Positions 13,979 to 27,259 of a stretch of DNA of 32,090 nucleotides are shown here, piece after piece. Origin of the DNA: Mariprofundus sp. GTDB lineage: Bacteria; Pseudomonadota; Zetaproteobacteria; Mariprofundales; Mariprofundaceae. Each line of letters opens with the position of its first letter. The stretch's first letter is position 1. Made by a program: the position numbers and the translations under genes. The stretch is from assembly GCA_021772835.1 (NCBI GenBank), contig JAJFLE010000021.1, forward strand, positions 1-32,090. Reading direction: 5' to 3'. The notes below the pieces were generated by a model. It saw only the letters and a program-made list of their open reading frames with translations, did no database searches and was not told the DNA's origin.

Positions 13979-14338
13979 ATGAGTGATATGCAAGATTACA
14001 ACTCAAGCTTGAGTGATGCAGCTCAAAGCCGGAAATATGAAACTTTTTCTTATTTGCCTGCTTTAAGCGTGGAATCTACACGTGCACAGATTCAATACAT
14101 TGTTGATAAAGGCTGGAACCCATCGATTGAACACACAGAACCGGCACATGCAATAAGCAACTACTGGTATATGTGGAAGTTGCCACTGTTTGGTGAAACA
14201 GACGTTGATGCGATTCTGGCAGAACTGGAAGCTTGTCATAAAGCCCATCCGGATAATCATGTTCGTCTGTTGGGTTTGGATAACTTCGCCCAATGCGCGG
14301 GCACATCGATGGTGATTTATCGAGGCATAGCTGTCTAA
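13979..14338 (+). CDS. cbbS: RubisCO small subunit
   Basis: CbbS (119 residues) caps the form I octamer. Recognisable family segments are [35 protein letters not shown], the [14 protein letters not shown] core and the C-terminal [20 protein letters not shown]. The N-terminal 17 residues are polar and variable, as is common. AGGAGA sits about 7 bases before the ATG. It is separated from cbbL by a 74-bp spacer holding a strong hairpin, and is followed 29 bp later by an intrinsic terminator. The cbbLS message may therefore end here in part, with cbbQO made by read-through or from another promoter. Confidence 0.97.
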
Positions 14339-14366
14339 AACCTGAACGATCTGCGGTGAACTACGA

Positions 14367-14404
14367 AGCCCTCGTCCGACAACGGTTTCGGCCGAGGGCT
14401 TTTT
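14367..14404 (+). terminator. Intrinsic terminator after cbbS
   Basis: AGCCCTCG (14367-14374) pairs perfectly with CGAGGGCT (14393-14400). The stem extends inward by CCGA/TCGG after one mismatch, and the hairpin runs straight into TTTTT at 14400-14404. This is the best intrinsic terminator in the window. It lies within the presumed cbb operon, between cbbS and the 103-codon ORF. Confidence 0.85.
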
Positions 14405-14418
14405 AATATCACGACACG

Positions 14419-14458
14419 GAGACATGCTGAATGTTCAGCGTCTCTTCAAATTTATAGT
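14419..14458 (+). promoter_or_regulatory. Palindrome plus -10-like box upstream of the 103-codon ORF
   Basis: GCTGAA-tg-TTCAGC (14426-14439) is a perfect dyad. It is extended outward by GAGAC (14419-14423) and GTCTC (14440-14444), with two unpaired bases on the left arm. TATAGT at 14453-14458 resembles a -10 hexamer, and the dyad occupies the corresponding -35 region, where no good -35 is seen. This arrangement suits a regulated promoter restarting transcription after the cbbS terminator, or a second RNA hairpin. Both roles are inferred. Confidence 0.4.
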
Positions 14459-14498
14459 AAGGTGCGTGGTTTAAAACGAGCATCGAAACGGTGGAAGT

Positions 14499-14810
14499 AT
14501 GAGTAAAACCCAGACTTATGTTGGCATAGAGAATGAAATCAATGGTGGTATGACGGCTATTGGCAAGATTATTCGTGATGCATGGGTGTTTGGCTTGTTA
14601 AGCGAGTCGGAAACATGCATGGGTTGGAATGCAGCAATGGTGGAGGTGTTGCTGGATAAGGTGAACCGGGAATGGGATAAGTACGGATGTCTGGTGAGTA
14701 ACCTTCCCGCTGAACTGTTTGAGCGCCATCGGCGTATTCATGATATCGCTTTCATTAAAGCTCAGGCAGCGGGTTGGTCTGGCGCGTTTGAAGTTGAAGA
14801 TGAAATCTAA
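14499..14810 (+). CDS. Unknown protein between cbbS and cbbQ
   Basis: A 103-residue soluble, mildly acidic protein with no signal peptide or membrane span and no motif I recognise. Its composition is protein-like throughout, with a Trp-rich core (DAWVFGLLSESETCMGWNAA, then VNREWDKYGCLVSNLPAE) and a C-terminal RIHDIAFIKAQAAGWSG segment. GGTGGAAG ends about 1-2 bases before the ATG, a weak ribosome-binding site. The position inside a RubisCO operon suggests a role in RubisCO assembly, activation or regulation, but nothing in the sequence proves it. It follows the cbbS terminator and is followed by the five-hairpin array, so its expression may be uncoupled from both cbbLS and cbbQO. Confidence 0.8.
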   Translation: MSKTQTYVGIENEINGGMTAIGKIIRDAWVFGLLSESETCMGWNAAMVEVLLDKVNREWDKYGCLVSNLPAELFERHRRIHDIAFIKAQAAGWSGAFEVEDEI

Positions 14811-14816
14811 GGAGAT

Positions 14817-14957
14817 GCTAATTTATTGCATGCTGCAAGAAATTAGCTCGCAAAAGAAAAGACGTGGTTTTTCTTTTGCTTACAAACCAACCATTTGCAT
14901 GGCCGGTTTGGCAGCCCATCTGTCGGCTGCAAAGAAATACTGACACATCAGTATTTC
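14817..14957 (+). other. Array of five consecutive stem-loops before cbbQ
   Basis: Five inverted repeats fill 141 bases with gaps of 0-3 nt. H1 14817-14847: GCTAATTT/AAATTAGC, one mismatch, then TTGCA/TGCAA, loop TGC. H2 14850-14879: GCAAAAGAAAA/TTTTCTTTTGC, 11 bp perfect, 8-nt loop. H3 14883-14910: CAAACC/GGTTTG, a 2x2 internal loop, then CCAT/ATGG. H4 14911-14930: GCAGCC/GGCTGC, 8-nt loop. H5 14934-14957: GAAATACTGA/TCAGTATTTC, 10 bp perfect, CACA loop. The stems do not share sequence, so this is not a tandem repeat. It lies between the unknown ORF's stop and the cbbQ ribosome-binding site and may be a structured leader, a processing element or a small RNA. Confidence 0.7.
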
Positions 14958-15007
14958 CCTAACAGGAATCATTTTTTTGCAGTGAATATAACGAATAAGA
15001 GGTAGAT

Positions 15008-15829
15008 ATGTCGGTAACTGAAAACATAGTAGATATTGAACAATATAAAATTGCTTCAGAGCCATATTATGAACCGGTAGGCAATGAGGTGGAGCTCTAT
15101 GAGTCTGCATACAGTGTTCGCATGCCTTTGATGATTAAAGGGCCCACTGGCTGCGGTAAATCCAGGTTTGTTGAACACATGGCATGGAAGCTTGGCAAAC
15201 CCCTGATCACTGTGGCCTGTAATGAAGATATGACCGCTTCTGATCTGGTGGGGCGCTTCCTGTTGGATAAAGATGGGACCAAATGGCAGGACGGTCCCTT
15301 AACCAGTGCAGCGCGTATGGGGGCGATTTGTTACCTGGATGAAGTGGTTGAAGCACGTCAGGACACCACCGTAGTCATTCATCCACTCACAGACCACCGC
15401 CGCACATTGCCGCTGGATAAGAAAGGGGAGCTGGTCGAAGCGCATCCCGATTTTCAGCTGGTTATCTCTTATAATCCCGGTTACCAGAGCCTGATGAAGG
15501 ATCTGAAGCAATCGACAAAACAACGTTTTGGCGCGATGAATTTTGATTACCCTGAAGAAAAAACCGAAATCAGCATTGTTTCAAAAGAGTCGGGTGTAGA
15601 TGCTAAAACTGCTGAGAAGCTGGTGCATATTGCTCATCGTGCTCGCAACCTGAAAGGGCACGGGCTGGATGAAGGCATTTCAACGCGTTTGCTGGTCTAT
15701 GCTGGTCAGTTGATCAATAAAGGAGTTGATCCTCTGGCTGCCTGTACGATGACGATGGTGGATCCGTTAACGGATGATCCGGATATGATAGATACCTTGA
15801 ATGCTGCTGTTGAAACTTTTTTTGCTTAA
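15008..15829 (+). CDS. cbbQ: RubisCO activase component CbbQ (MoxR-type AAA+ ATPase)
   Basis: CbbQ is the AAA+ motor that, with CbbO, removes inhibitory sugar phosphates from form I RubisCO. The 273-residue protein matches the family: Walker A GPTGCGKS (45-52), ITVACNEDMTASDLVGRFLL, Walker B ICYLDE (107-112), sensor region LVISYNPGYQSL, and the C-terminal lid ending in TMVDPLTDD. GAGG lies about 7 bases before the ATG. It is 48 bp upstream of cbbO. The 197-bp spacer before it holds the five-hairpin array, which may control how much CbbQ and CbbO is made relative to RubisCO. Confidence 0.97.
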   Translation: MSVTENIVDIEQYKIASEPYYEPVGNEVELYESAYSVRMPLMIKGPTGCGKSRFVEHMAWKLGKPLITVACNEDMTASDLVGRFLLDKDGTKWQDGPLTSAARMGAICYLDEVVEARQDTTVVIHPLTDHRRTLPLDKKGELVEAHPDFQLVISYNPGYQSLMKDLKQSTKQRFGAMNFDYPEEKTEISIVSKESGVDAKTAEKLVHIAHRARNLKGHGLDEGISTRLLVYAGQLINKGVDPLAACTMTMVDPLTDDPDMIDTLNAAVETFFA

Positions 15830-18232: not shown

Positions 18233-18589
18233 GTGGTATATGCTAGACAGGTTGATCAAATTGATGCTTCGGCATTTAATTTGTGGCGAAGAGCGCGATT
18301 GCGTTTGGGCAGCCCCCAGCGTTTATGTTTGCCTGACATGAAACATATCGTATTGATTATGAACGACAAACAATGGATCGTAGTCGATCAGCGACAAAAT
18401 GATATGCCACTGGTTGGCTGGACATTTTTTCAAAACCCCGGTCTGGAATGTTTACATACTCCGGTTGAATGTACTTTTAATTATTACCACTTTATGGCCC
18501 ATTATATGGGAGAAGAATTGAAAGAGAGGGTGTTAAGGCAAATGAAGGTCGCTCTGGAAACACTGTTGCAAAGTTGCGCAAAAACGTAA
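18233..18589 (+). CDS. Unknown protein downstream of cbbO
   Basis: A 118-residue soluble protein with a GTG start 12 bp after the cbbO stop, so probably cotranscribed. It is rich in aromatic and hydrophobic residues (KHIVLIMNDKQWIVVDQR, then LVGWTFFQNPGLECL and FNYYHFMAHYMGEEL), with no signal peptide and no motif I can name. It looks like a compact single domain of alternating strands with a C-terminal helix. An internal ATG at 18338 would give a much shorter protein, and neither start has a convincing ribosome-binding site. Its place at the end of the cbb operon suggests a RubisCO-related role, which is inference only. Confidence 0.7.
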   Translation: MVYARQVDQIDASAFNLWRRARLRLGSPQRLCLPDMKHIVLIMNDKQWIVVDQRQNDMPLVGWTFFQNPGLECLHTPVECTFNYYHFMAHYMGEELKERVLRQMKVALETLLQSCAKT

Positions 18590-27081: not shown

Positions 27082-27132
27082 TGATTTAAAAGAGATGTTG
27101 ATTTGTTGGCTTCCTGTCAAAAAATAAATGCA

Positions 27133-27159
27133 AAAAGGTGAATGGTCATTTCACCTTTT
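27133..27159 (+). terminator. Intrinsic terminator after the epimerase-like gene
   Basis: AAAAGGTGAA (27133-27142) pairs perfectly with TTCACCTTTT (27150-27159) around a 7-nt loop. The 3' arm supplies the U-run and the 5' arm an A-run. It lies 51 bases after the stop. Confidence 0.7.
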
Positions 27160-27259
27160 CTTACAAAGTCAATGACTGGCATCATTATCATGGCAACCCG
27201 TCTTTGGGCTGTACGGTAGCGCTGAATGAATCAGCACTTCCTCAATAAAGGAGTGACAG

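Follow-up and report, generated by a model that had tools for sequence, protein, structure and literature searches.

A block of hairpins between the RubisCO genes and cbbQ

Does the RubisCO operon of this Mariprofundus sp. carry, ahead of cbbQ, a structured RNA of its own, or does the hairpin-rich spacer found there have another origin? An earlier note on this DNA had described five back-to-back stem-loops between an open reading frame of 103 codons (ORF103) and cbbQ. We examined the locus in a window of 32,090 nucleotides, which is the whole stretch of DNA analyzed, and searched for similar sequences in its own genome, in the genomes of the order and in a sample of the phylum. Folding of positions 14811-15007 yielded a minimum free energy (MFE) of -63.7 kcal/mol, far below the -41.6 ± 3.5 kcal/mol of 200 dinucleotide-shuffled controls (z -6.24; 0/200 as low), a comparison that the note had proposed as a check. 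When folded alone, the block at 14811-14958 (148 bp) formed five consecutive hairpins on the plus strand (MFE -58.4, z -7.10) and reached an MFE of -66.0 (z -8.42) on the minus strand. The plus-strand folds place the five stem-loops where they had been described (Table 1), and the two stems reported as perfect are those of H2 and H5. The statement that the hairpins share no sequence holds only in part, because the 5' arm of H1 recurs in inverted form in the 3' arm of H5 (11/17 bases, by eye).

Table 1. Coordinates of the element, its parts and its second copy in the window. Primed hairpins are those of the minus strand.
Feature	Position	Strand	Basis and remarks
Element, 148 bp	14811-14958	- (strand apparently constrained as RNA; order H5'-H4'-H3'-H2'-H1')	Empty site in G057, covariance model, MFE, A.C > G.U
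Left copy of 4-bp target duplication CTAA	14807-14810	.	Includes the TAA stop of ORF103
Right copy of 4-bp target duplication CTAA	14959-14962	.	Sequence and empty site
Left terminal inverted repeat GGAGATGCTAATTTATT	14811-14827	+	5' arm of H1; resembles left ends of IS5-family elements L088/L117, L118 and L136
Right terminal inverted repeat	14942-14958	-	3' arm of H5; family right end GGAAGCGCTGATTTATT-like
Hairpin H1	14814-14849	+	Fold; as H1' on the minus strand, family loop AGGA/ANGGA; window copy without GGA
Hairpin H2	14850-14879	+	Fold; family loop most often GCGTGG (minus strand, CCACGC)
Hairpin H3	14883-14910	+	Fold; family loop on the minus strand often GUAA (GNRA type)
Hairpin H4	14911-14930	+	Fold; minus-strand family loop ANGGAN; window copy reads GACAGAUG, without GGA
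Hairpin H5	14934-14957	+	Fold; holds the right terminal inverted repeat
Second, decayed copy	27093-27243	- (model match on +, orientation same as first copy)	73 bits

An insertion at the ORF103-cbbQ junction

The spacer of a close relative lacks the block. In genome G057, whose CbbQ and 103-codon protein are 98% and 86% identical to those of the window, the spacer reads AACTAACAATAATC where the window has the 148 bp between two copies of CTAA. This empty site and the CTAA on both sides define the element as positions 14811-14958, with a 4-bp duplication; the duplicated CTAA contains the TAA stop and the upstream ORF thus keeps its end. A covariance model trained on ten copies of the element from the own genome matched the window copy at 14813-14960 (136 bits) and detected the element at none of eight other loci with the 103-codon ORF among relatives. 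The cbbQ gene lies beside the ORF at seven of the eight, and neither cbbS nor cbbQ is in the stretch examined of the last one (L016). The earlier note had called for the cbbS-cbbQ spacer to be collected from related genomes; the element was present at 0/7 loci with ORF103 adjoining cbbQ. Judged from these alignments, the block is almost certainly an insertion into the CTAA with which ORF103 ends.

The neighborhood of the insertion has features of its own. The 103-codon ORF (14499-14810) has no Pfam or NCBIfam match and has homologues in 9 of the 78 genomes of the order, the own genome included; among eight relatives, six have it with cbbS on one side and cbbQ on the other (L010-L015), and L017 shows cbbQ only. 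It perhaps encodes a protein that is accessory to the RubisCO genes. Between cbbS and this ORF, a terminator-like hairpin followed by a T run (14365-14402; -23.6 kcal/mol, z -3.77), with a similar sequence at the same place in G057, may separate the expression of RubisCO from that of ORF103-cbbQO. An ORF of 118 codons after cbbO (18233-18589) also has no Pfam or NCBIfam match.

A dispersed family with patchy distribution

The block is not unique, with further copies elsewhere in the own genome and one more in the window. Searches with blastn returned 10 further matches in the own genome. Folded with their flanks, most of these repeated the set of hairpins in unchanged order, in some cases from the opposite end; five clean hairpins were lacking in L002 and L005, and L025 was interrupted in H2. 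The covariance model returned 63 matches in this genome at E ≤ 0.01, among which some positions were counted again on the reverse strand; 31 of the matches reached at least 63 bits, the window copy included. The second window copy is missing from G051, where the aligned flanks are 19 nt apart, and the flanks are 34 nt apart in G050. Across the order, we found the element in 42 of 78 genomes in a patchy distribution, with the matches at E ≤ 1e-8 numbering 78 in G047, 48 in G065 and 22 in G054. In one region of G047 (L245; C42 39994-40461), three copies follow one another head to tail. In a phylum sample of 398 genomes, 47 matched at E ≤ 0.001, seven of these from outside the order. Additionally, a search pattern that spans H2 with its linker retrieved 53 named stretches, whose H2 conservation is for that reason not evidence; 42 bear the label Mariprofundus, Mariprofundaceae or Zetaproteobacteria, and the other 11 comprise one Cellvibrionales, one Gammaproteobacteria, six 'Proteobacteria' SZUA-204 and three unclassified bins.

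The genomic context of the copies was counted in a set of 101 and target duplications in a set of 110, with copies near contig ends or repeated left out. The element shows no orientation bias, as the left neighbor of 43/101 copies and the right neighbor of 45/101 were co-directional with the minus strand. Most copies are intergenic and 18/101 overlap an ORF of at least 90 codons by a simple ORF call. Such a context is as expected of a selfish element and not of a UTR device of the host. A host-level terminator or UTR element was accordingly rejected as a candidate, both for the absence of orientation bias to genes and because the scan found no terminator in the element. That scan, run at the window locus only (14300-15100), identified no terminators and one promoter-like site (minus strand, 15014-14985) versus a mean of 1.4 in shuffles; it is a simple scan that also missed the hairpin at 14365-14402. 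A known Rfam RNA was ruled out, with no matches in the window at gathering; at E ≤ 5, four loci with copies gave 10 matches, all below gathering and none to a Csr/Rsm family.

Evidence for mobilization as an IS5-type MITE

The element is short and multi-copy, and no ORF of at least 80 amino acids overlaps the window copy. Its commonest terminal inverted repeats read GGAGATGCTGATTwATT on the left and GGAAGCGCTGATTtATT on the right (11/17 in the window copy); other lineages have other inverted repeats, such as GAGCCTGTCGCAGAAT at both ends of L267. When the boundaries were free to move by one position, the 4-bp flanks were identical at all four positions in 61/110 copies (permuted right flanks: mean 21.8, maximum 34) and agreed in at least three in 90/110 (permuted: mean 72.8, maximum 83); with fixed boundaries, they were identical in 48/110. 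YTAR fits 44 of the 61 identical duplications, and IS5 of Escherichia coli is described as duplicating Py-T-A-Pu (PMC5493358). This 4-bp target, established over more copies, replaced our first guess from the flanks, an IS630-type MITE with a TA duplication.

Relatives encode insertion sequences with matching ends. In G065, a 1156-bp IS (L088/L117, 172-1327) has element-like left and right ends around a transposase of 316 amino acids that is assigned to IS5 by NCBIfam NF033581 (323.7 bits; cut-off, 140), and its flanks differ from each other (TTAG and TTAA). A complete related IS in G012 (L119) surrounds an IS5-type transposase and is flanked by CTAG on both sides. Homologous transposases (E ≤ 1e-10) are present in 19/78 genomes of the order; at the same threshold the own genome has no match to this IS transposase, and other PF01609 proteins are present there. 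We dropped co-occurrence of the IS and the element as a line of support, as the two are not associated among the 78 genomes (element in 11/19 IS-positive and 31/59 IS-negative genomes); the partner is consequently proposed from the shared ends and target. A search for IS5 transposases in the seven matched genomes from outside the order returned no IS whose ends match exactly those of the copies folded from that genome. On the strength of the ends, the duplications, the empty sites and the matching IS in relatives, the element has very probably been mobilized as an IS5-type MITE.

Several other IS5 copies deserve mention. L270 of G169 (753-1910), from this search outside the order, is a complete IS5-type IS with ends GGAACCTCTGA- and TTAG on both sides, and its ends resemble by eye the H1 end of copy L065, from a second subfamily of the element. 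L128 of G044 (1426-2111) is an IS5 copy in which an internal deletion has left about 0.7 kb and two intact ends, possibly a stage between IS and MITE. In L118 of G035, a palindrome that resembles hairpin H5 (965-991) lies close to the right end of an IS5 copy.

Covariation and the constrained strand

The paired positions of the family change together. In the ten copies used for training, the covariation score was 0.323 compared to 0.158 in shuffled and at most 0.122 in slid alignments. Thirty copies outside the training set, which were found with the model though not used to build it and were aligned by sequence only, scored 0.328 (shuffled, 0.143; slid, at most 0.119), with 87.9% of the cells paired and 36/54 pairs changed on both sides. 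The score rose to 0.411 (shuffled, 0.155) in 60 copies fitted to the model, an alignment that leans to the model and in which 49/57 pairs had changed on both sides.

Mismatches of the A.C and G.U types reveal which strand is constrained. The premise of this test, as we infer it, is that upkeep of the arms at the level of DNA or by copying predicts as many A.C as G.U cells. For this count, a set of 101 copies was drawn from 100 loci, and copies more than 85% identical were collapsed, which kept 58/101. Read in plus orientation, hairpins H2-H5 of these 58 copies (<85% identity) had 137 A.C and 52 G.U cells; A.C on the plus strand is G.U on the minus strand, so the RNA under selection appears to be that of the minus strand. 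The asymmetry was also observed in a sequence-only alignment (A5; 74:27) and below 75% identity, where the ratios were 72:25 for cells, 21:3 for sequences and 23:6 for columns. H1 opposes it (30 A.C and 42 G.U in the 58 copies), and a per-column test over all helices was weak (30:16, p 0.054; <85% identity). The minus strand also had the lower MFE in 71/95 copies (p 5.5e-7); for the MFE and loop counts, only copies of up to 165 nt were used, which kept 95/101 and 56/58, respectively. By the A.C/G.U asymmetry and the folding energy, we conclude with high confidence that the constrained structure is an RNA of the minus strand.

GGA loops and putative CsrA sites

The minus strand also exposes a recurrent loop sequence. 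GGA is in a terminal loop of the minus strand in 47/56 copies, and in at least two loops in 35/56, versus 1/56 on the plus strand; nine of the 56 have no GGA loop at all. In the H4' loop (ANGGAN), conservation is 93-95% in the columns A, G, G and A and only 67% and 52% in the two N columns, and the H1' loop reads AGGA or ANGGA. Common in the aligned copies are, in addition, the H2' loop CCACGC and the linker UUGUAAG, and 39/56 copies have an H3' loop of the GNRA type. The window copy, which is outside the 101-copy set and hence outside the sets of 58 and 56, was read separately and has 0 GGA loops. An ANGGAX hexaloop on a C-G-closed stem is described as a high-affinity CsrA/RsmE site in which N and X are free (PMC4005645), CsrA ligands selected by SELEX follow RUACARGGAUGU with the motif mostly in hairpin loops (PMC7652899), and CsrA motifs are reported to occur generally in pairs (PMC4383904). 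Loops of this Csr/Rsm type are a trait of the family and not of the window copy. All 13 genomes tested have csrA, three of them without the element.

Copies from distant genomes carry the same two loops. We folded copies from five of the seven matched genomes outside the order, and 11/11 had GGA in both H4' and H1' and none on the plus strand, a count that represents at most five independent cases because copies within a genome are related. Those of G078 are 74-79% identical to copies L058 and L060 of the order, and those of G171, G094, G085 and G219 only 41-58%, the latter with terminal inverted repeats that differ in sequence. Outside the order, the H2' and H3' loops vary and the GGA loops of H4' and H1' stay. 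Six of the 11 stretches with labels other than Mariprofundus, Mariprofundaceae or Zetaproteobacteria were folded; four of the six (L209, L219, L181 and L224; SZUA-204 twice, PFL40 and bin676) have no GGA, three of which keep five hairpins nonetheless, and L179 and L223 have two GGA loops.

Copies of atypical length add to the diversity of the family. From 20 such regions, we folded 19 (18 from G047, one from G054) and only read the tandem array L245; L243 and L244 are short partial copies. Seventeen of the 19 had at least two GGA loops, two had four, and 6/19 also showed a GGA loop on the other strand. The extra GGA hairpins are located between H4' and H3' in part of the atypical copies and in L058, L085, L174, L218 and L207; another type of insert, in the H2' loop, adds no GGA. 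Blocks of extra hairpins can be seen in L150 (1655-1873), L227-L239 (G047), L058 (486-707) and L207.

Two circumstances bear on how these counts are read. Most of the ten training copies of the model have UCC in these loops, so the collection of copies favors those with GGA; the model score correlated weakly with the number of GGA loops (Spearman 0.34, p 0.013, n = 53). Furthermore, the CsrA idea is post hoc, having come after the loops were seen. With this in mind, we lean slightly towards the minus-strand RNA binding CsrA through its ANGGA and AGGA loops, which we treat as putative sites.

Proposed explanation and alternatives

We consider it moderately probable that the block belongs to an IS5-type MITE whose minus strand specifies a five-hairpin RNA, most likely one that binds CsrA. 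An IS5-family transposase encoded elsewhere would recognize the terminal inverted repeats and move the element in trans, and each insertion would duplicate a 4-bp target of the YTAR type, here CTAA. The minus strand would specify the five-hairpin RNA, in which pairing and two loops are kept, and a properly transcribed copy could offer its H4' and H1' sites to a CsrA dimer. The RNA might then act as a mobile CsrA decoy or as a portable CsrA site within a host transcript.

The earlier note's proposal of an operon-specific leader or processing block, which would set the levels of RubisCO versus activase, has in its favor the location between ORF103 and cbbQ and the strong fold of the transcribed strand. 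As a conserved function, it is refuted by the empty ORF103-cbbQ junction in relatives: the element is missing from 8/8 of their ORF103 loci, seven with cbbQ adjoining, and one is a clean empty site. It is also countered by the dozens of unrelated sites without orientation bias to genes (43/101 and 45/101) and by the constraint on the opposite strand, and we find it hardly credible. What stands of the note's overall reading is the structured RNA, which the covariation over 10, 30 and 60 copies supports; the role in cbbQO does not.

The element could also be an ordinary MITE whose hairpins matter as DNA only, for transposase binding or as template-switching palindromes, with loops alike by common descent. 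H1 and H5 hold the ends for the transposase and must follow it, template switching between the arms can make paired changes without selection, and 9/56 copies have no GGA; yet such an element should have A.C equal to G.U, if our premise is right, instead of 137:52 in H2-H5 and 72:25 below 75% identity, H2-H4 keep their pairing outside the ends, and the GGA loops persist at 41-58% identity. We therefore judge it unlikely. Constraint on a single strand of DNA, recognized as single-stranded hairpins in the style of attC or of IS200/IS605 ends, which are examples of a single DNA strand as the constrained molecule, would likewise give a G.T-type asymmetry on one strand; the partner here is, however, a DDE transposase of the IS5 type with a 4-bp duplication rather than an HUH enzyme or integron recombinase, making this reading very improbable. 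A structured RNA of the minus strand could, finally, have another role, such as control of the transposase, binding of another protein or stabilization of neighboring transcripts, in which case the GGA loops would not be CsrA sites. Strand asymmetry and covariation name no partner, the CCACGC loop of H2', the UUGUAAG linker and the GNRA-type H3' loop (39/56) are common as well, and some copies keep five hairpins without GGA, but outside the order the loops of H2' and H3' change and those of H4' and H1' keep their GGA, and the variable positions of ANGGAN are precisely the two N. Such a role seems to us improbable.

Under the preferred reading, a mobile element with a minus-strand RNA that would bind CsrA, the window copy is probably just a passenger: it is inverted relative to the operon and has no GGA loop, and is thus most likely inert apart from adding 152 nt of structured spacer between ORF103 and cbbQ. 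The insertion could conceivably alter cbbQO expression in this one genome. For the window, the analysis removes a tempting but wrong story of RubisCO regulation. If the minus-strand RNAs do bind CsrA, the transposon could put new genes under CsrA or titrate the protein. Broader still, and with somewhat less than an even chance in our estimate, the copies may form a phylum-wide family of transposable CsrA-decoy RNAs, IS5-type MITEs with a conserved multi-hairpin RNA and two to four putative CsrA sites. Were this true, such RNAs would be encoded tens of times in each genome of Mariprofundus-type iron oxidizers and also in remote members of the phylum, and transposition itself would rewire or titrate the global Csr/Rsm network of the host.

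Comparison with known systems

With IS5-family IS and their MITEs, the element has in common the terminal inverted repeats, shared with the IS5-family IS of relatives, the Py-T-A-Pu duplication, the lack of an 80-codon ORF, the mostly intergenic location and the multiple copies; it differs from them in its five back-to-back hairpins, the strand-specific RNA covariation and the conserved GGA loops. ERIC, RUP, Correia/NEMIS and REP/BIME are likewise short, dispersed, palindromic and intergenic repeats of bacteria, though their ends, targets and hosts differ from those of the element. None of these is known to have five covarying hairpins bearing CsrA-type loops.

The open-licence literature searched yielded no example of a MITE combined with a CsrA-type hairpin RNA, and as a MITE the element represents a new family. 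No paper joining MITEs and Zetaproteobacteria was found there, and MITEs and CsrA appeared together only in the Rfam 12.0 paper, with no link between the two. Small RNAs from MITEs are mentioned in a 2024 review of prokaryotic MITEs, with nothing of a five-hairpin form in the sections cited here (PMC10969869). Its examples include the sRNAs Cbsr3, Cbsr13 and Cbsr16 of Coxiella burnetii, which derive from QMITE and whose role is given as unknown (PMC10969869); they resemble the element as small RNAs from MITEs, a likeness by description and not by sequence. The MITEs of Thiomargarita (PMC4853749) are set beside it by description only as well.

The closest parallels in form are the RNAs that sequester CsrA or RsmA, namely CsrB/CsrC and RsmX/Y/Z. 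RsmZ of Pseudomonas fluorescens is described as having 127 nt, with four A(N)GGAX stem-loops and a terminator (PMC4005645). We do not file the element as a Csr/Rsm sRNA, because no terminator or promoter was identified at the window locus and CsrA binding is proposed from the loops, whose sites are putative. It also differs from those RNAs in having usually two GGA loops and in being dispersed and mobile, and it is like them in its consecutive stem-loops and in its A(N)GGAX loops on C-G-closed stems.
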